Assembly (NCBI GenBank): GCA_001839685.1
Contig: MLAK01000057.1
Coordinates: 69,039-133,038, forward strand
Direction: 5' to 3'
From: Tritrichomonas foetus
Lineage: Eukaryota > Parabasalia > Tritrichomonadida > Tritrichomonadidae
Length of the DNA: 64,000 nt
In this document: positions 9,425 to 31,821 of the stretch, piece by piece
Layout: the number at the start of each line of letters is the position of its first letter
Position numbering within the stretch: position 1 is the stretch's first letter
Program-made: the position numbers and the translations under genes
Notes under the pieces: generated by a model
Database searches by the model: none
What the model was told of the DNA's origin: nothing
The model's input: the letters and a program-made list of their open reading frames with translations, nothing else

Positions 9425-12139
9425 ATGTGGGTTTACAATGGTCCTGAACCCACGAAAAAAGATGATTTCTTGCTCAACATAAATAAAGAACCAATTAAAT
9501 GTAGTAAAACAGTTTGTACTGAACTTAGTCAGAAAATTAAAGAAAAATCAACAAATGATAAATATTCAATTGAATTAAAATGTACAAATTTTGATCCACT
9601 TATTGTTCAAAAGCTTTTTACAGCACAATTGATTCAAATATCAGAAACCAATGTCGAATTTTTCATTGAGCTTTGTAAAAAATTAAAAATTGATTCTTTA
9701 AAAAACCATATCAATAATGTTATTTTAAAAAGTTTAGCATCTCTTGAAAAAGTATTGTATGCAGATCATTCTGAAATGTCTATTGAAAAAATTCTTGCTA
9801 ATCTTTATGATTTAAAGTTTATTAGCTATAAAACAATTTGTCATTCATTTTTGCACTGCTGCTTTTCAAGATCTGACAAAATCGATGAACTTTTGGATAT
9901 TTTAGTACAATTTGATAAACTTCTTCAAATTCGAGATCAGCCAGGTATTCTTAATCATTTTCATGATGTTATTATTAGTTCTTTAAAAATTGTTGATGGA
10001 GATTTTTTATTTACAAGTGAATTATTTTTTATTGTTCGAAAGTTAGTGAATCAACAAATTATAAAACTTTCAGAATTGGTAATTTTTGACCTTCCACCAT
10101 TATTTGATGATCTTTTTGGTTTAATTGAAGAAAATGAAGATAAAATTAATAAATTTAAAATAGATGCTGATAAAGGGATCGGAATTGATGAAATTGCAGT
10201 TTCTATTCGAAATGATGATTTGATTACTTTTATAGAACTTTTTAAGAATTATAAAAAGGATTCTTCAGAATTTATTATTAAAAAAGATGTATTTGAGAGA
10301 TCTACTCTTGTTAATACTGGTGTATGTAACTTTATTGAATATGCTGCATTCTTTGGAAGTGTAAAAATTTTTAAATTTTTGTTCAAAACAAATGAAGAGA
10401 AACCAGAATTACTTCCTATTTTTGCAGTGGCTGGTGGGAATATTGAAATAATAGAAATAGTATGGGATTATTCTGAAAACCAATCTGATTCACTAAAATT
10501 GAGCTTTGATGGAGCCTTAAATTTTGCAATAGAATATCACAGGCTTCATATTTTCAAATATCTTCGAGAAAAAATGGCAGTAGAAGTAAATGAAAGTGAA
10601 TTGCTTTCCGAATGTATTGAATTTTGTAATTTTTCACAATTTCATTATTTAATTTTGAATCCTGCAATAGAAATACCATCAACTATTGTTGCAGAAATTG
10701 CTAAAAGTGATATTATTGAACTAATAAAGTGGATTGTAGATTCATATCCAGAAAAATATGAAGAATTTATTAATTCTGAATTTGAAGAAACAACTCCAAT
10801 TCAATTTGCATGCAAGAATGGATCGATTGAAATGGTTAACTTTTTATTAAAATGTGAACATTGTAATGTTAATAAAAAGACGATAACTACAACTTTGAAT
10901 GCTGCTGTTGATTCTGGTGATCCACAAATTCTGAATGCTATTTTAGAGAAAGGAGTTGAAAATATCAATGATCGTGATGAATATGGATTTTCGGCACTTC
11001 ATCAAGCAGTAATGAAAAATGACATTGAAATAGTACAATNGTTATTAACACAAAAAATGATTGATAATAATCTAAGAACAAAGAAAGAAAAAATGACGGC
11101 CCTTCATATTGCTTGCCAAAATGGATTTATCGAAATAGTTCAACATTTATTAGGATCTTATAATGTTAATATTAACACTTTCTCTGTGAATGGAATGACA
11201 CCTCTTCATTCATCAATTGAAAATAACTTTCCAGAAATCGTTAAGATGTTAATGAATAATTTATTTATAAATATAAATACTGTCAATGATGTTGGTGATG
11301 CTCCAATTCACACAGCTTGTAAAGTTCAAAACATTGATATCATTCGAATGCTTGTTGAAAATGATGTCGAAATCAATGTTTTAAATGCTGAGACAATGGC
11401 TCCAATTCATATAGCATGCCATCTAAGCAATACCAATGTTTTCAGAGAATTAATAAAGAGTAAAATGATTGAAATTAATTCGAAAGGGGCTGGCTGGACA
11501 CCTCTTCATATTTGTTGTAAAAATGGAAATGTAGATATTATTAAAGAATTGCTGGAATTCAATAACCTAAATTTAAATCCCACTGGTGGAAATGATATTG
11601 ATGGTCAATTACCTATTCATATAACCGCTATTTATGATCAAACAGAAGCTGCTAAATGTATTTTAGCTGCAGGATCTTTGTCAACAAATCTCAGTAGCTT
11701 ATCTAGTGGAACTATCAATAATGCAGCCAAAAATATTAATGCAAAAAAAGAACAGCCAAAAAAAGAAAAGAAAATTAACATTAATCAAAGGAATAAAGAA
11801 GGATTATGTCCGATTCATATCGCTATTAAACATAAAAATATTGAGTTAATTCGTGCAATGTTAACAAGAAACGATATTAACTTAAACATGAAAACAGACG
11901 AAGGTGATACTTCATTTCATCTTGCTTTTAAAGAAGCAACAATGGAAATTGTAGAATTACTTTTATCAATTGTTGGAATTAACATAAATGAAACAGATAG
12001 AAACGCAATGACTATATTACATCTAGCATGCCAGTCTAATGAAAATAATCTTGTTAAAAAATTATTAAAATCAAAAGATATTGAGATTAATTGCAAAAAC
12101 AAAATTTTTGGTTCTTTTTTATTGTGTTTTTTTACTTAA
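9425..12139 (+). CDS. BTB-like/ankyrin-repeat protein, main fragment (frame-broken)
   Basis: From the ATG this frame encodes 904 residues. Residues 1-95 resemble a degenerate BTB/POZ fold (FLLNINKEPIKCSK, then L..FTAQLIQISETNVEFFIELC). A helical linker to about 430 follows, the N-terminal arrangement common in trichomonad ankyrin giants. From about 450 there are at least ten ankyrin repeats with readable T-P/A-L-H-x-A-C cores (for example KMTALHIACQNGFIEIVQHL). The frame ends at a TAA at 12137-12139 after an atypical FGSFLLCFFT tail. Ankyrin repeats resume at once in another frame at 12150, so the natural protein continues. One undetermined base lies at 11040. Role: protein-protein scaffold; partner unknown. 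Confidence 0.8.
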   Translation: MWVYNGPEPTKKDDFLLNINKEPIKCSKTVCTELSQKIKEKSTNDKYSIELKCTNFDPLIVQKLFTAQLIQISETNVEFFIELCKKLKIDSLKNHINNVILKSLASLEKVLYADHSEMSIEKILANLYDLKFISYKTICHSFLHCCFSRSDKIDELLDILVQFDKLLQIRDQPGILNHFHDVIISSLKIVDGDFLFTSELFFIVRKLVNQQIIKLSELVIFDLPPLFDDLFGLIEENEDKINKFKIDADKGIGIDEIAVSIRNDDLITFIELFKNYKKDSSEFIIKKDVFERSTLVNTGVCNFIEYAAFFGSVKIFKFLFKTNEEKPELLPIFAVAGGNIEIIEIVWDYSENQSDSLKLSFDGALNFAIEYHRLHIFKYLREKMAVEVNESELLSECIEFCNFSQFHYLILNPAIEIPSTIVAEIAKSDIIELIKWIVDSYPEKYEEFINSEFEETTPIQFACKNGSIEMVNFLLKCEHCNVNKKTITTTLNAAVDSGDPQILNAILEKGVENINDRDEYGFSALHQAVMKNDIEIVQXLLTQKMIDNNLRTKKEKMTALHIACQNGFIEIVQHLLGSYNVNINTFSVNGMTPLHSSIENNFPEIVKMLMNNLFININTVNDVGDAPIHTACKVQNIDIIRMLVENDVEINVLNAETMAPIHIACHLSNTNVFRELIKSKMIEINSKGAGWTPLHICCKNGNVDIIKELLEFNNLNLNPTGGNDIDGQLPIHITAIYDQTEAAKCILAAGSLSTNLSSLSSGTINNAAKNINAKKEQPKKEKKININQRNKEGLCPIHIAIKHKNIELIRAMLTRNDINLNMKTDEGDTSFHLAFKEATMEIVELLLSIVGININETDRNAMTILHLACQSNENNLVKKLLKSKDIEINCKNKIFGSFLLCFFT

Positions 12140-19491: not shown

Positions 19492-19696
19492 TGAAAAATT
19501 TATTCATGTATCGTTTTTTACATAACATTTCGAGAAAAAAAAACGTTATTTTGTGAAAATGTGACATGAAAAACATCAAATCTACATGATTTACACAATA
19601 TTATTTATTATGAAAGATTCATTTAAAACAAAACTCTAATTCAATGTATATTCAACATAATATGTCTCATAAGATACCATCTAAAAATGATTCCAA

Positions 19697-19778
19697 ATTT
19701 TCATGAGGAATCCAATTTAATAGTTCTGGTCATCAATCAAATAACCATCAACTATTAAATTGGATTCCTCATGAAAAT
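19697..19778. repeat. 29-bp perfect inverted repeat at the end of the Myb gene
   Basis: The arms 19697-19725 and 19750-19778 are exact reverse complements over 29 bp, with a 24-bp spacer. The right arm encodes the near-C-terminal residues FHEESNLIV of the Myb protein. The left arm contains the last two codons, the TAA stop (19717-19719) and the start of the 3' untranslated region. In RNA this would form a very stable hairpin across the stop codon. Within the spacer, TGGT (19727-19730) and ACCA (19744-19747) can extend the stem further. Confidence 0.95.
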
Positions 19779-20442
19779 CAAACTTAGGAATCACTTTTTC
19801 AGCTTCTTCAACTATTTCATCAAAACAGAAGAAATATGATATATCTTTTTCGTTAGATGATTCACTTGAATTCTCTGTTTGTGACCATGTGTTTTCGATC
19901 ACCAGGCGATTTTGGCAGCCAATCTGGCAATTTTGAGAATTTGTTATCGCTTGTTCGTTCATCATTTTCTTCATCCTGTTGTACTTTATTCTCAAAGTGC
20001 GTAATTTTTCCTTAGCGAAGCGCCTTTCTAATAAGAAATACCTATTTTTGAGCTCGATTTCTGAGCGTCCGTCAAAGAATAGCTTTAAATATTTCCATTT
20101 TTTCCCAAATATTTGCACTTTTTCAACCAAGTTTGTTTCTTCTTCTTCTGTCCACACTCTTTTGCAGAGGGTTGGCGAAAGGTAGTTTGTCCATCGGTCT
20201 TTACACTGCTTTGGGTCTCTGCTTGTCATTAGTCTTGAAATTAATTTCCAATTCAAACTTCCGACTCGTCGAACTGCCTCTTTCAGTTCTTCATCCTCGG
20301 CTTGAGTGAAATGCTTCCGAGTGATCTTTTGTTTTTTCTCAGTAGGCGAGTCAGCTGGCGAATCGAATCCCAAACAGTTGGATAATGATCGTTTAGGTAA
20401 AGTGTTGAATGAATTTGAAGATCTGGATCCGTCTCCAAACAT
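19717..20442 (-). CDS. R2R3 Myb-like DNA-binding protein
   Basis: The 241-residue protein has two Myb repeats. Repeat 1 is at about 43-88 (HFTQAEDEELKEAVRRVG, NWKLISRLM, QCKDRWTNYL) and repeat 2 at about 94-140 (VWTEEEETNLVEKVQIFG, KWKYLKLFF, ELKNRYFLLERR). The usual tryptophans are present in repeat 1 and at the start of repeat 2. Two-repeat Mybs are the main specific transcription factors of trichomonads and bind ACGAT-type promoter elements. Residues 142-241 are a basic helix followed by an acidic tail, possibly an activation region. The last 20 codons and the stop lie within a perfect inverted repeat, so the present C-terminus may be a rearrangement product. Confidence 0.92.
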   Translation of the reverse strand: MFGDGSRSSNSFNTLPKRSLSNCLGFDSPADSPTEKKQKITRKHFTQAEDEELKEAVRRVGSLNWKLISRLMTSRDPKQCKDRWTNYLSPTLCKRVWTEEEETNLVEKVQIFGKKWKYLKLFFDGRSEIELKNRYFLLERRFAKEKLRTLRIKYNRMKKMMNEQAITNSQNCQIGCQNRLVIENTWSQTENSSESSNEKDISYFFCFDEIVEEAEKVIPKFDFHEESNLIVDGYLIDDQNY

Positions 20443-21972: not shown

Positions 21973-24933
21973 ATGAATCTCGATCCCGTCTTTCAACTGC
22001 TGAATTTTACCAAAGTTTTTCCAAAAGTTCTCATTAAGTTACACAATACAAATGTTTTTCAATCAATGAATAGCGTTTTTCATGGACCATTTATTTCATT
22101 TTCCTTGATAGATCAGCCGGATTTCTTTCTATTTTGCCATAATTATACCCCAATAGAAACAACAATTAAATCAAGACCAGCAGTAAAACTTCAAATGATT
22201 GCAAAGCCAGAAATCGAACATTTTATTTCTTTCACATCAAAAGAAACAGCCGAGGATTTTATCGTTGCGTTTTTTACTGTAAATGCAAAAATTGAACAAT
22301 TTATAACCGACGGAAGAATTCAGGGATTTTCATCTCGTGAAGAAAATAATATTTATGGTGTCGAATTGAATATAGATGAAGAAAAGCTAATGAGATTTGA
22401 GTTGGAGCTATTTCCAACTGAATTACATGTGAAAATCAGAGGAGAAGCACACAAAGCAAAAATCATCAGCCAAAAGAAGAAATTCAAAGATATCGTGATG
22501 AAATTTTCTCAGGATTTTAGAATAAATCCACTTTTTGAATCACCGAAAGTTGTTGATGAATTAGCAATTTGTACAAACTGTTTTGAAGTTGCTGACAAAA
22601 CTCAAAAATTCTTAGTCGTGTTTAGAACGCCCCAGTCAATGTTGAATTTCGCTCTTGCTGCATATTTGACTAATTTGAGATTACTGACTTCCAGTGGAAA
22701 CGCTCCTTCTTCAATGTTTGGACCACGAACATCAAGCCAACCAATCAAACCAGCAATGCAAACTCCTGCACAGCCACAAAAATCAAATTCTACTCACGCA
22801 AATCAAACAAATTCAACTCAAAATCAACCAAAAGAAGCAGAGAAAAATACACAAAAACCGGAAATCAGGCAAGAAACCAAAGAAATTGTTCAAAAAAATT
22901 CACAAAATGAAGACAAAGAACAACGAAGTGGAAAATCAAATTCCAGTGATGTTAAAAACAGTGAAACACCAATTAAAGAGAAGAAAAGACCTAAGAAAAT
23001 TGATGTGAATGAAAAAGTTGAGATTCCTGCGATTGCTCCAATTACGCCAACGCAGTCAATTAGAGAAAATTCATCTGGATCATTTTGCCCACCTTCACGA
23101 ATCAAGGCAGTAAGTAGCGATGCTCGCATTCAAATTGATGATGTTCTCATTATGCCTAAAAATTCAGCGTTGATGGAATTTACAAAATCTTCAAAGAAAA
23201 ATGATGATTTCATGCTCGAGGTTGACTCAATATTAGAAAGAGAAAGACGTGAAACGATTAAACAAGTCAGAGAAATAAGAAATCTTCGCGAAAGACGGTC
23301 AACTGTCAAAAAACGAGCTAGTTTTCTGAATAAAGATGGCCAACAACAGGCCAAACCTAATCATCCAGGCGTTAAATTCAACGCACTACCTGCTCTTCCA
23401 CGTAACAATAAGCGTAACAACCCGTCACAATTATCATCTGATATTCAAAACTCACCTAAGTCAGAAATTGTTGCCAAACAAAGGAAAAGAAAACCAACAT
23501 TCAAATTATCAGTTGCAAGTATCGATGTTGGTGAAATCAAACCAATTGATAATATTGTTGTTCAAATAAAAGAATGTGATGATGATTCCATTAATAAAAA
23601 TGCCGCATTAAATGCTAAAAAGTCATATACCTTTTTACCAAATGGTCCTTCAACCAAACCTATTGCTGCACCAAAATTAGAACGAGTTGTAAATGTTCTC
23701 AAAGATATTAGAAAACCAGAAAAACCAACAATTCCAGATTTTTCGCTATACATCGATGATTTAAAGAAACCACCACCTCAATTAGCATCAAAAAGCATCG
23801 AGGCTGTTTTAGATAAAGCAATTTCTTCACTGGCTGAATTCGATAATGATTTTTCATTCAAATCCTCTACGAACGATAATTTTATGACAGAAAATTCTAT
23901 CATTATACAAAATACACTTTCTCATTTTGAAGAGCTCAAAATTGACGATTTTTCATGTTTTGGTGCCGCTGAACTTGAAGCCAGATCCATCATTGAAACA
24001 CCTCAGCCACCGAATTCCCACTTTTTACATCAATTATCCATTGTTATTGAACAATTGAATAGTCAAGAACTTACTGATGTTTATTTAGATAGTAATGTTG
24101 GTCTTGATTTGGCACAGCTTTTTGCTTCTCTCTGGTTGAATGGTTTGAAAGGTGAATCTTTGATTCCTGCATTCACTGAATTTTTGATGTTTGTTCCAAA
24201 TTTGAGTAAAACTGTTGATCGTGCTTCTAAAGAAACCGATAAGTTGTGTCAAGCCTCAATTATTTCTGCATTTTTATTAAATACCACATGGATTGTTCCT
24301 GTTCTAAGAGAAATTAAACGCCGTGATCGGTGGATAACCAAATATTATTATGAATCTGCTTTAATTAACTCTGAGAATGATTTAGATTTAATTTTATCGT
24401 TGTTAGTTCCAATTATGAATCATGTGAAGTTCCGCATTAGTGTTCGCAGCTCTATTTTATCAACAGCCAGTATTGAGTTCATGACAAGGTATATATTGAC
24501 CCCTGCCTATGGATATTTAGAAGTCCAGCCTTATTTGAATAATGCAGAAATGCTCACAGCAATTTCTAATCAATTCGGTTATGGACTTAAAAATTATGCA
24601 AAAATTAAAATTGGCCAAGGAACACCACAAATTTCTTTCATTATGGATGTGGTTTCAAACTGGCGAGGTAAAAAAGATGAAGATTTTGAATTATTTTCGA
24701 AAACTTCACAATTCATTTTTGGACAATTTACAATTGGACAGAAAAACACACAATTAAATGATTTTATAAAATTTGCAATGGAGAAAAATATGCTTGCCAA
24801 GTGGTTGATTTATCTTCTTCATTCACGAAGTGTTGCTGAAAAGTATTATGAAGAAGAATCTTTATTCAGAGATTCTGGAAGAGCTTATCATGTAATTGCT
24901 GCCATCATTAAATTCTCAAAAGTTTCTAACTAA
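21973..24933 (+). CDS. Large protein with RUN-like C-terminal domain
   Basis: This is 986 residues. Residues 1-235 look globular with two beta-rich halves, possibly PH-like; the repeated pattern ...ISFTSKETAEDFIVAFFTV and ...LVVFRTPQSMLNFALAAYLT supports duplicated modules. Residues 236-640 are a disordered Gln/Asn/Lys/Pro linker. The region from about 690 resembles a RUN domain: LAQLFASLWLNGLKGES, then WIVPVLREIKRRDRWITKYY, ESALIN, and a paired Leu-rich helix (LDLILSLLVPIMNHVKF). RUN domains bind small GTPases or kinesins. This is inferred from pattern, not a family search. The rest, to 986, is helical. Confidence 0.75.
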   Translation: MNLDPVFQLLNFTKVFPKVLIKLHNTNVFQSMNSVFHGPFISFSLIDQPDFFLFCHNYTPIETTIKSRPAVKLQMIAKPEIEHFISFTSKETAEDFIVAFFTVNAKIEQFITDGRIQGFSSREENNIYGVELNIDEEKLMRFELELFPTELHVKIRGEAHKAKIISQKKKFKDIVMKFSQDFRINPLFESPKVVDELAICTNCFEVADKTQKFLVVFRTPQSMLNFALAAYLTNLRLLTSSGNAPSSMFGPRTSSQPIKPAMQTPAQPQKSNSTHANQTNSTQNQPKEAEKNTQKPEIRQETKEIVQKNSQNEDKEQRSGKSNSSDVKNSETPIKEKKRPKKIDVNEKVEIPAIAPITPTQSIRENSSGSFCPPSRIKAVSSDARIQIDDVLIMPKNSALMEFTKSSKKNDDFMLEVDSILERERRETIKQVREIRNLRERRSTVKKRASFLNKDGQQQAKPNHPGVKFNALPALPRNNKRNNPSQLSSDIQNSPKSEIVAKQRKRKPTFKLSVASIDVGEIKPIDNIVVQIKECDDDSINKNAALNAKKSYTFLPNGPSTKPIAAPKLERVVNVLKDIRKPEKPTIPDFSLYIDDLKKPPPQLASKSIEAVLDKAISSLAEFDNDFSFKSSTNDNFMTENSIIIQNTLSHFEELKIDDFSCFGAAELEARSIIETPQPPNSHFLHQLSIVIEQLNSQELTDVYLDSNVGLDLAQLFASLWLNGLKGESLIPAFTEFLMFVPNLSKTVDRASKETDKLCQASIISAFLLNTTWIVPVLREIKRRDRWITKYYYESALINSENDLDLILSLLVPIMNHVKFRISVRSSILSTASIEFMTRYILTPAYGYLEVQPYLNNAEMLTAISNQFGYGLKNYAKIKIGQGTPQISFIMDVVSNWRGKKDEDFELFSKTSQFIFGQFTIGQKNTQLNDFIKFAMEKNMLAKWLIYLLHSRSVAEKYYEEESLFRDSGRAYHVIAAIIKFSKVSN

Positions 24934-27516: not shown

Positions 27517-30500
27517 CTAAGAATGATGAGGAACAGTCAATTTTGGCATTGGTTTGCTTGCAGTAGAATTACTTCCTCCCGATCGATCAAAAAATTTTGA
27601 ATCTGGCCTTCTTGCACTATCTAGTGCTGATTGAGCACCAGAATTCACTCTTGAAACTTTTATTGGCGTTGTTGAAGAATGAATTCCGAGTCTTGATGTT
27701 GTTGCTCCTGATCCCATTGGTGGAAGTGGTGCTTTCATACCACGTCTCATTTGTTGAGCTCTCTCTTTAAGTTCAGATAAGTTAATTCCAAGTTGATTTG
27801 CTAATTTTTGTAATTGCTGCGGATTTTTCTTCATTAATTCTTTTGGTGTTGTAGTTGGAGACATTAGTTGAAGTCTTTCTTTTTCAAGAGCAATTCGAAT
27901 CCTTTCTGCTTCTTCAAGATTTCTCTTTTTCATTATTTCTCTTTGTTCAATCAATTTTAATCTTTCATCATATTGAACTACTGTTTCAACAGCCATTGCT
28001 TCTTTTTGTTTAGCAAGTCTATTTGCAGTTTGCTTTCTCTCTTCCAACCAAATTTGCCGAACTATAGCATCTCTCTTTCGCTTATTCTCGTTATCAATTG
28101 CTGATTTAATGATATATTCGTCGCTTGTTCTTAATTTTTCGATGACCTTGTTATTTCTTTCAATTCGTTCTTGATCTTTTAATTCTCTATTTTTAATTCC
28201 TTTTTCTAATCTCTCACGATGAACATTTTTGAATTCGTCAATTTTTTCTTTCTTTTCAATCAGTTTATGCTGGAATATTTCTTCATGTTTAATTTGCTTG
28301 TCAGTTGTATTTTTTCTTTTCTTTTCGAGAATCTCGGTTTGATTTTGACGAATCTTTTTAACTCGTTCTTCTTTTTCTTTTTCTTTTTCTTTGTTTTGAA
28401 GTTCTCTTTCTTTCTGTTGTTGCTCTCTTTTCATTTGTAATTCTATTTCTCTTTTCTTTAATTGATCCTGAAGCTCTTCGAAGGTTTTTTGTCTCTGACG
28501 TAATGTTTCTTCTGTCATTTTCTTTGCTTTTTCATTTTTTGCTTTTCTATCTTGCTCCAATTTCTGAAGGCGTAATTTTTTCTGTTGCTCAATTTCTTCC
28601 TTTCTTTTCAGAAATAGATCTTCTTTTTCTTTTTCTCTTTTCCTTTTTTCTTCATCTCTTTTTCTTTTATCAATTTCATCTTGTTCTAATTTTTTAATTC
28701 TGGCGATCATTTTCATTCTTTCCTCTTGCCTTTGTCTTCTTAACTCTTTTTGTTGCTTAATTATTTCCTCATGTTCTCTTTCTTGTGATTCTACATCTTG
28801 TCTTGCATATTCTTGTTCAATAAACATATTTAATATGGCAGCTTCCGCTTCTTTTCTATTTCTATTCTCCAATTTTTGTAATCGATCTCTTTCTTGTTTC
28901 ACAAAGTCAACTTCGTTTCCATTACTTAAACTAACTGCATCATAATTTCGAGAGCTTGAAGCACCAGGTGAAGGATTTCTAGATCTCGCAGCTTCCTTCT
29001 TTTGGTATTCAATAATTCGATTTCTTTCTTCCTTTATGAATTCGATTGTATTATCAACTCTCTTTTGTAATTCTGCTCTAACGACTTCTTTTAACTCAGG
29101 ATCTCTTGTATAACTAAATATGACAGCATCAGATGGGTAGGTGATTTCTTCCATATGAATTCCAAGATTATGGCATGCTTGACGTGTTAAAGGATCATTA
29201 AATTTTCTTGGTCTTTTAGGATTGTAATTATCAATTGATCGAAGTTTCCTATGGGTATGCTCTGTTTCATACTCATACTGATTCTGCTGTTCCGACATAT
29301 TAGCAGTTGGTTCCTTTTCCACTGGCATTGGAGCTGGCATATCTTCAATTTCGTCTTCTTGGTCATTTTGTGGATTTTCTAGACTTTTTTCTTGAGGTAT
29401 TGACTGTTCATTTTTATCTTTTAATGATGAAGGTGGATGCAATTTTTCTGGAATAGTATCTGTCTGAAAAAGTTTTTCACCGGATTTCCCATCATCATCA
29501 GTTTTAATATTCTCTTCTGATTTTGAATTGTCTTCAGGTTTTGTATTTTCTTCCGATTTGATATTTTCTTCCGATTTTCCTTCCTCTTCTTTTTTAGATT
29601 TTTCTGTTTCATTTGTTTTTTCTATCCTTTTATCTTTTGATTTTGTTGCATTCATTTCTTCTGGTTGTTTTTCATCACTAGAAGAAGTAGATGAATTCGA
29701 TGAAGTACCTCCACTCGACTTCGCACTTTGACAATTATCGTTAGTTTCATTGTGATCTAGTTTTTCTTCATTATCACTACTCTCGCTTTGTTTTTCAATT
29801 TTATCATTACTGGAAATTACATTTTCAATTTTCTCTTTTTTATGATGCTTTTTTCTCTTTTTCTTAGATCCTACTTCATTAGCTTGATTTTCATTTGAGT
29901 TTTCTTGGACTTGACTTGGAATATTATCCATTAAATTTGATATAGTATTCATTATTATTTGGTCAATTTTTGGATGATTTTCTTTGTCATTATTCTCTTC
30001 ACCATTATCTTTTGTGCTCATTTCAGTTTCCACTTTTTTTTCTACATTATTTCCTTCTTCGTTTCCTTTTTCTTTAGTTTCAACCTTGATTTCTTGATGA
30101 TTATCATCATTGATGTTTTCGTGTTTTTCTTCAATTTTTATTGGAGTTTCATTACCTGGTTTCGGGTCATGTGATTTTTCCGAAGATGAGGAAGAATCAT
30201 TGATTGGTGGATTGCGTTCTAGTGATTCTATTCCTAATAATGCATTAACTTTATGTTCTTGATCTACAATTTCAATACGATTTTTTCCTTTGTTTTCATC
30301 TTTTATTTTACTTTCGTCCAAAGAATTTGCATTTGAAGATAGTTTACTTTCAGTTTTTTCTGCCTCTTCTTTACTAATTATTTGAGTTGAGACATTATCA
30401 GGAAATGTTTCAATATGAGCTTTTGAAGAAGATGAGCTAATTTGTTTCTTTACCTCTTGTTCGATCGATTGTCCTTTTTCTTCATCTGAAGAAGTAGAGG

Positions 30501-31821
30501 ACGATTTTATTTTCACAGTGTTTCTATCAAATTCTTGAGCTTCACTTTGATCATTAGCATTTGAATAATTGTTAAATAACAACTCTTTATTTTCAACTTG
30601 TTCTTTTTCTTGAGAAATTTTATCTTCTTTATCCGTATTATCTGTTTCTGATTTAGCATTATCTGTTTCTGATTTAGTATTATCTGTTTCTGATTTAGCA
30701 TTATCTGTTTCTGATTTAGCATTATCTGTTTCTGATTTTGTATTGTCTGAGTCTGATTTTGTATTATCTGAGTCTGATTTAGTATTATCTGAGTCTGATT
30801 TAGCATTATCTGTTTCTGATTTAGNNNNNNNNNNNNNNNNNNNNNNNNNNNNNNNNNNNNNNNNNNNNNNNNNNNNNNNNNNNNNNNNNNNNNNNNNNNN
30901 NNNNNNNNNNNNNNNNNNNNNNNNNNNNNNNNNNNNNNNNNNNNNNNNNNNNNNNNNNNNNNNNNNNNNNNNNNNNNNNNNNNNNNNNNNNNNNNNNNNN
31001 NNNNNNNNNNNNNNNNNNNNNNNNNNNNNNNNNNNNNNNNNNNNNNNNNNNNNNNNNNNNNNNNNNNNNNNNNNNNNNNNNNNNNNNNNNNNNNNNNNNN
31101 NNNNNNNNNNNNNNNNNNNNNNNNNNNNNTCTGATTTAGCATTTTCTGTTTCTGATTTAGCATTATCTGAGTCTGATTTGGCATTGTCTGTTTCAGTTTC
31201 TTTATTACTGTCACTTGAAGTAGAAGAAGCTGAGGATGAGGATGAAGAAGAAGTAGAGTTGACTTCCGATTCAGGTTGATTGTTTTCTTTTTCAGTGTCA
31301 CCTTTTGCATCCTCTGTAAAGTCATCGAAGCCGCTATTAAGTGTACTACTTAAATTTTTATCACCAACTGGTGATGCAAAGTTTCTTTCGGATTCAGAAT
31401 TCATTCTACTTGATTTTTCAGGTGATTCCGGACTTTGCGATATTATTTCTTCGTCACTTTCATTTTTTGTTGTATTTTCACTTTGATCATTTAAATCAGG
31501 ATTTTTTACATTACTTGAATCTCCATCTCCACCTGGTTTACTAGAACTTTCTCTCAGAGAATCCTCACTATCTGAATCTGAACTTGACGACGAATAAGAA
31601 TCTGAAGATTCTGATCTTGTTTTATTTGAATTTCCAGATTCGTTTAATTTCTCTCTTTGTTGATTTTTAACTTCTTTTTCTTCGCCTTCGTTATTCTTGC
31701 TTTCTTGGACATTCTTCAATAAATTATTGAGGAGACTTGGTCTTGCCCCGTTTCCAGTACCAAGCAGCGACTTATTTTTTGGCTTATTTTGAGTTTCGTC
31801 ATGTTGCGAAGGAGGATCCAT
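27517..31821 (-). CDS. Giant acidic-repeat/coiled-coil protein (contains assembly gap)
   Basis: The frame is about 1434 codons including 305 undetermined bases. Residues 1-225 are acidic and Ser-rich. Residues 226-395 are a 7-residue tandem repeat of type K-S-E/D-T/S-D/E-N-A/T, in which the gap lies. Residues 400-850 are disordered and acidic. A more ordered block at about 857-945 (YPSDAVIFSYTRDPELKEVV) may be the conserved core. Residues 970-1300 are a very long Arg/Lys/Glu helix rich in R-Q-K-E-E, like microtubule- or actin-binding coiled coils. The C-terminus is Ser/Pro-rich. I recognise no family; a cytoskeletal or nucleolar scaffold is a guess. The repeat length is unreliable because of the gap. 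Confidence 0.75.
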   Translation of the reverse strand: MDPPSQHDETQNKPKNKSLLGTGNGARPSLLNNLLKNVQESKNNEGEEKEVKNQQREKLNESGNSNKTRSESSDSYSSSSSDSDSEDSLRESSSKPGGDGDSSNVKNPDLNDQSENTTKNESDEEIISQSPESPEKSSRMNSESERNFASPVGDKNLSSTLNSGFDDFTEDAKGDTEKENNQPESEVNSTSSSSSSSASSTSSDSNKETETDNAKSDSDNAKSETENAKSXXXXXXXXXXXXXXXXXXXXXXXXXXXXXXXXXXXXXXXXXXXXXXXXXXXXXXXXXXXXXXXXXXXXXXXXXXXXXXXXXXXXXXXXXXXXXXXXXXXXXXXKSETDNAKSDSDNTKSDSDNTKSDSDNTKSETDNAKSETDNAKSETDNTKSETDNAKSETDNTDKEDKISQEKEQVENKELLFNNYSNANDQSEAQEFDRNTVKIKSSSTSSDEEKGQSIEQEVKKQISSSSSKAHIETFPDNVSTQIISKEEAEKTESKLSSNANSLDESKIKDENKGKNRIEIVDQEHKVNALLGIESLERNPPINDSSSSSEKSHDPKPGNETPIKIEEKHENINDDNHQEIKVETKEKGNEEGNNVEKKVETEMSTKDNGEENNDKENHPKIDQIIMNTISNLMDNIPSQVQENSNENQANEVGSKKKRKKHHKKEKIENVISSNDKIEKQSESSDNEEKLDHNETNDNCQSAKSSGGTSSNSSTSSSDEKQPEEMNATKSKDKRIEKTNETEKSKKEEEGKSEENIKSEENTKPEDNSKSEENIKTDDDGKSGEKLFQTDTIPEKLHPPSSLKDKNEQSIPQEKSLENPQNDQEDEIEDMPAPMPVEKEPTANMSEQQNQYEYETEHTHRKLRSIDNYNPKRPRKFNDPLTRQACHNLGIHMEEITYPSDAVIFSYTRDPELKEVVRAELQKRVDNTIEFIKEERNRIIEYQKKEAARSRNPSPGASSSRNYDAVSLSNGNEVDFVKQERDRLQKLENRNRKEAEAAILNMFIEQEYARQDVESQEREHEEIIKQQKELRRQRQEERMKMIARIKKLEQDEIDKRKRDEEKRKREKEKEDLFLKRKEEIEQQKKLRLQKLEQDRKAKNEKAKKMTEETLRQRQKTFEELQDQLKKREIELQMKREQQQKERELQNKEKEKEKEERVKKIRQNQTEILEKKRKNTTDKQIKHEEIFQHKLIEKKEKIDEFKNVHRERLEKGIKNRELKDQERIERNNKVIEKLRTSDEYIIKSAIDNENKRKRDAIVRQIWLEERKQTANRLAKQKEAMAVETVVQYDERLKLIEQREIMKKRNLEEAERIRIALEKERLQLMSPTTTPKELMKKNPQQLQKLANQLGINLSELKERAQQMRRGMKAPLPPMGSGATTSRLGIHSSTTPIKVSRVNSGAQSALDSARRPDSKFFDRSGGSNSTASKPMPKLTVPHHS
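30647..31192. repeat. 21-bp tandem repeat array
   Basis: About 11 complete 21-bp units are visible, eight left of the gap and three right of it; about 15 more would fill the interval between. Each encodes a KSETDNA-type heptapeptide on the minus strand. Units alternate between ETD and DSD versions. Unit starts to the left (30647 to 30815, steps of 21) and to the right (31130 onward) stay in the same 21-bp register across the N-run. Confidence 0.9.
30825..31129. other. Run of 305 undetermined bases
   Basis: N characters fill 30825-31129, inside a tandem repeat. The distance between flanking unit starts, 31130 minus 30815, is 315 bp, exactly 15 units, so the gap size agrees with both the reading frame and the repeat period. 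Confidence 0.98.

Follow-up and report, generated by a model that had tools for sequence, protein, structure and literature searches.

A perfect inverted repeat that supplies the stop codon of a Tritrichomonas foetus Myb gene, and its probable origin by template switching

In a 64,000-nucleotide stretch of DNA (the window) from Tritrichomonas foetus, a parasite of cattle, an inverted repeat sits at the 3' end of a minus-strand Myb gene. The locus raises two questions, namely how a protein gene came to end in a perfect hairpin, and whether this hairpin has been kept for what it does in the RNA.

The inverted repeat and the gene that it ends

The two arms are complementary at 29 of 29 positions and are separated by a spacer of 24 nt (Table 1), which is the perfect 29-bp repeat of the original prediction. 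Sequence and translation also agreed with its description of the inner arm as coding sequence (FHEESNLIV, up to residue 231) and of the outer arm as the carrier of the stop. The TAA stop had further been called the antisense of a TTA leucine codon, and this is literally true, the two triplets being paired with each other; it is, however, less striking than it may seem. When 5350 antisense copies of 29 nt were drawn at random from coding sequence, 40% held a stop in a random frame, so that a foldback ending an open reading frame is unsurprising in an AT-rich genome.

Table 1. Features at and around the 3' end of the Myb gene, with positions counted along the window.
Feature	Position	Strand	Content or basis
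Next gene downstream, same strand, 449 aa	18142..19491	minus	ORF list; Pfam search
Downstream outer stem extension, GGAATCATTTTT	19683..19694	minus	predicted fold, pairs with 19787-19798
Outer arm	19697..19725	minus	exact reverse complement of the coding arm; codes N240, Y241, stop
TAA stop	19717..19719	minus	antisense of the Leu229 TTA codon at 19756-19758
Two-repeat Myb gene, 241 aa	19717..20442	minus	uninterrupted ORF; PF00249 and PF13921 matches
Spacer, 24 nt	19726..19749	minus	codes DGYLIDDQ, residues 232-239
Inner (coding) arm	19750..19778	minus	codes FHEESNLIV, residues 223-231
Coding-side outer stem extension, AAAAGTGATTCC	19787..19798	minus	predicted fold, pairs with 19683-19694

A match of 29 nt is far beyond chance, as had been claimed. 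Across 100 order-3 Markov simulations of a 64-kb window, perfect arms reached 19 nt at most (loop up to 100), and in real sequence (317,163 bases in 47 records, loop up to 200) the next longest measured 17 nt. The real sample was composed of the window and 46 loci, namely Myb loci together with 15 stretches of 10 kb picked arbitrarily; a few bases were counted twice, and five loci that overlap the hairpin were excluded. The simulated windows and the 317 kb of real sequence together rule out a chance origin. The arm was also unique, and with up to three mismatches only its own two copies were found in the 63.7-Mb assembly (none for the reversed control pattern), while a query of the assembly with 843 nt of the gene end returned no further copy of the hairpin. 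A perfect arm longer than 11 nt (loop up to 100, within 200 nt of the stop) was present in 0 of 29 Myb paralogues, and a common class of gene-end hairpins was rejected on these paralogues and on the 317 kb, neither of which held another. No description of the hairpin locus was found in the literature, among the titles and abstract openings of the matches listed.

The gene product belongs to the trichomonad two-repeat Myb proteins. The Pfam search matched PF00249 in two stretches (E 4.2e-22) and also PF13921, and at least 150 matches to the protein, itself included, were obtained in the same genome (579 candidates, 150 scored), which was searched as one T. foetus assembly of 63.7 Mb and 1064 contigs. 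TRFO_13624 of T. foetus was the closest paralogue among the matches listed. The ATG of the next gene downstream is 225 nt past the Myb stop, and its 449-aa product, without a Pfam match at E 0.001, is Asn/Gln-rich and carries an ESHLF-like motif about three times at its N-terminus. The gene at 21973-24933 on the plus strand is placed divergently from the Myb gene, and its product of 986 aa has a RUN domain (PF02759, E 4.7e-9) close to the C-terminus. A long minus-strand ORF (27517-31821) contains a 21-bp tandem repeat (30637-31194) that is broken by a 305-base N gap at 30825-31129, and the plus-strand AT skew is -0.44 at 28001-30000, inside the same ORF.

The outer arm created more than the stop codon, because the TAA together with position 19716 reads UAAA. 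In T. vaginalis this tetranucleotide is reported to serve as poly(A) signal and may cooperate with the stop codon (PMC6413133). The stop codon may double as a poly(A) signal in T. foetus too. TAAA was present at the stop of 32 of 107 sampled T. foetus ORFs, and the copied arm therefore leaves an ordinary-looking gene end. The next UAAA downstream of the Myb stop is at +94, and an AATAAA starts at +110. The scan for bacterial-type terminators gave none, and promoter-like sites numbered 3 against 2.4 expected.

Origin of the second arm

The hairpin was probably made by a short-range template-switch (foldback) error in DNA synthesis in which the coding arm served as template, a reading to which we assign a probability of about 0.6. 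About 29 nt or more of the last codons of the Myb gene would have been copied in reverse, 24 nt downstream, during DNA synthesis, and the copied strand would now hold the last two codons, the TAA stop and the UAAA. As for the extra pairing beside the core, either an imperfect palindrome may already have been there and seeded the switch, or a longer tract may have been copied whose ends then decayed. The predicted outcome for the mRNA is a hairpin of about 50 bp that encloses the stop. The template switch is the best reading because the inverted repeat is perfect, single-copy and not dispersed, has a short spacer and is far beyond chance. A nearby reverse-complement copy beyond chance, as is expected of a template-switch product, was found (29/29, spacer 24). 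On the other hand, a perfect core with altered flanks would also fit an old palindrome that was later perfected, or selection on the stem. The sequence itself shows a perfect, single-copy inverted repeat that supplies the stop; we infer the mechanism, its direction (coding arm as template) and the displacement of a different ancestral 3' end from one T. foetus assembly.

Comparable events are known. For RNA genes, Monttinen and Loytynoja reported that a single template-switching event can produce a perfect hairpin (PMC8794818). The present hairpin is like theirs in that its perfect reverse-complement arms lie close together, in that one reverse-copying event would suffice, and in that an RNA stem would be obtained at once; it is unlike them in that ancestral states were reconstructed in that work, and for RNA genes, whereas here the end of a protein gene is known from its present sequence alone. 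In yeast, Abraham and Hazkani-Covo described how template switching between the arms of short inverted repeats alters coding sequence (PMC8604942). As in those yeast genes, an inverted repeat within a protein gene would change residues, and the spacer is within their 70-bp limit. The arms given there are at most 16 bp and the changes are multinucleotide substitutions, in contrast to the present arm of 29 bp, the copy of which would supply a stop and the UAAA.

The original prediction had also proposed that the foldback gave the gene a new end. The template-switch origin stands as the best available reading of a perfect, single-copy repeat that is beyond chance, while the new gene end found no backing, with no orthologue and no significant tail alignment. 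Two protein searches returned no orthologue of the Myb protein, and the 37 proteins among the matches listed (the query's own excluded) cover at most 68% of it. Searching the genome with the tail of the protein retrieved only the tail itself, and homology to the tails of other Mybs was not significant for any of 29 (z at most 3.0). Many of these 29 paralogues, judged by eye, end in an acidic, aromatic stretch too. When the flanks are joined without the outer arm, a 248-aa reading is obtained that ends in DDQLESFLDGIL (LESFLDGIL), and a shift of the junction by 1 or 2 nt alters this ending completely. The nine new residues score as Myb-tail-like, at a level that was reached by 6.2% of 1979 flank 9-mers versus 73% of 493 tail 9-mers. 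Alignment of the tail to that of the closest paralogue was insignificant with or without the nine residues (P 0.15 and 0.14). Of 1370 null joins, 40% did equally well. The codon usage of the coding arm gave a log-odds of -0.87, which falls between coding sequence (1.61 +/- 1.99) and inverted 3' flank (-1.56 +/- 1.93) and so does not tell which arm came first. With no orthologue found and no tail aligning significantly, an older gene end and a longer ancestral protein are no more than possible, and either arm may be the original one.

The predicted RNA stem and its possible role

The sense RNA is predicted to fold into a hairpin of about 50 bp that reaches past the 29-bp core both ways. The inner extension consists of eight predicted pairs within the spacer (19740-19747 with 19727-19734), and the outer one of twelve predicted pairs past a 7-by-1 internal loop (Table 1). 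The predicted folding energy of the 161-nt sense segment was -66.9 kcal/mol (z -10.9), and that of the 160-nt hairpin segment was -66.2, versus a mean of -22.4 and a lowest value of -35.9 in 105 other ORF ends (at least 200 aa). The mRNA stem over the stop codon that had been suggested from the letters is thus borne out, as a prediction, by the sense-RNA fold, and the effects on termination, 3' ends or small RNAs that had been suggested along with it are possible ones. Elongating ribosomes melt such stems. The stem would therefore be opened ahead of the stop, and any pause would be expected near codon 222 and not at termination.

The hairpin could be a selected RNA element, either a 3'-end structure for stability or processing, or a Dicer substrate giving small RNAs, and a template switch may have made it in the first place; we hold this to be possible but unlikely. 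The depth of the sense fold, far below the 105 other ORF ends, speaks for it. The pairing outside the core counts instead for the template switch, to a degree that depends on the control. Among 5939 genomic contexts, the outer flank pairing had a P of 0.013 with Watson-Crick pairs and 0.008 with G-U pairs admitted, and the inner stem pairing a P of 0.015 with G-U and 0.38 without. When the core was held fixed and its own flanks and loop were shuffled (400 controls per setting), both strands folded better than nearly all controls, with P 0.0025-0.0075 for sense and 0.003-0.015 for antisense. With genomic flanks and loops as control the sense strand was still unusual (P 0.0025-0.025, 400 each), whereas the antisense strand was unremarkable (P 0.25-0.63, and 0.43 among 600 gene-end controls). 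The pairing excess is accordingly seen on the sense strand under both controls and on the antisense strand under one only.

The sense fold beats the antisense fold by 15.5 kcal/mol (-66.9 versus -51.4), a difference that 0 of 600 gene-end controls match and that has a P of 0 to 0.01 against genomic-context controls (400 each). This difference shrinks when the own flanks and loop are shuffled, with P 0.02, 0.04 and 0.11 at flanks of 25, 40 and 60 nt, so that much of the bias is composition; the loop gives most of the rest, as shuffling the outer flanks only gave P 0.34 and the loop only P 0.018. The evidence for RNA-level selection on the stem is weak and control-dependent, and gives a hint only.

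Processing of the stem is conceivable, because T. foetus has three genes with a Piwi domain and one protein in which the RNase III domain is present twice. The three Piwi-domain frames are on contigs C432, C608 and C120, and RNase III domains were found in three frames, one of which, an 833-aa frame on C303, has two and is Dicer-like; the contigs bearing Piwi or RNase III frames are C303, C193, C622, C432, C608 and C120. The regulatory, IRE-like hairpin described in the 3' UTR of TvCP12 in Trichomonas vaginalis (PMC10143249) is a further point in favour, being a hairpin near a trichomonad mRNA end. That hairpin, however, is protein-binding and regulatory and lies in an untranslated region, whereas the present one is about 50 bp and includes coding sequence and the stop. 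No IRE family was among the eight Rfam matches with E up to 1, and the non-canonical trichomonad form is outside these models. All Rfam matches stayed under their gathering scores, and the best microRNA ones were on both strands; the top match, mir-576, reached 42.5 bits against a gathering score of 99 on both strands, and the hairpin was not assigned to any microRNA family. These microRNA matches reflect hairpin shape only. A microRNA-like product is not favoured either, because the small RNAs reported for T. vaginalis are about 34 nt and were likened to piRNAs (PMC7845603). A further-reaching scenario, in which one replication error gave a new stop, a poly(A) signal and an antisense copy, and in which the stem could be processed by Dicer- or Piwi-like proteins, would make this a new-born self-targeting hairpin RNA locus in a protein gene, and we consider it very unlikely.

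Draft assembly, mobile elements and significance of the locus

It is improbable that the second arm is an artefact, that is, a foldback chimera or a gap-filling error in a short-read draft assembly. The assembly is probably the strain K draft, which combined Illumina with 454 reads, had its gaps filled automatically and was published as 68.5 Mb in 1573 scaffolds (PMC5399258), and the hairpin is a single unique locus; the draft assembly thus carries some artefact risk for it. Against this, the 82-nt hairpin would be short enough for single reads of that kind, and no N gap is near it, N being present only at 11040 and 30825-31129, although N would also be missing from a gap that had been filled. 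Nor does the stem seem to match a fresh exact foldback, since its pairing beyond the core is imperfect. Two long-read assemblies of T. foetus have been published, a PacBio one of Belfast (GCA_905133005.1) and a Nanopore/Hi-C one of KV-1 (JBEJVY000000000; PMC11415386). It is extremely improbable that a hairpin-type mobile element (MITE) inserted here, ended the gene and left the hairpin as its relic. About 30% of the KV-1 genome of T. foetus consists of DNA transposons (PMC11415386), and a 3-bp CAA, read from the sequence, flanks both arms. A match of 3 bp is trivial, however, one of the arms codes in frame for the protein, and a MITE or other dispersed inverted-repeat element is expected in multiple copies, while the two arms are all that 63.7 Mb contain with up to three mismatches and the gene-end query brought up no other hairpin.

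The foldback hairpin that supplies the stop codon of this Myb gene is a real-looking, rare, single-copy and further example of a known mutation class. Were it present in strain K only, or missing from long-read assemblies, it would be a minor polymorphism or an artefact. Confirmation in other isolates would make it a clean natural example of one template switch rewriting the end of a protein gene, and one from which the rise of hairpin RNAs within protein genes could be studied.
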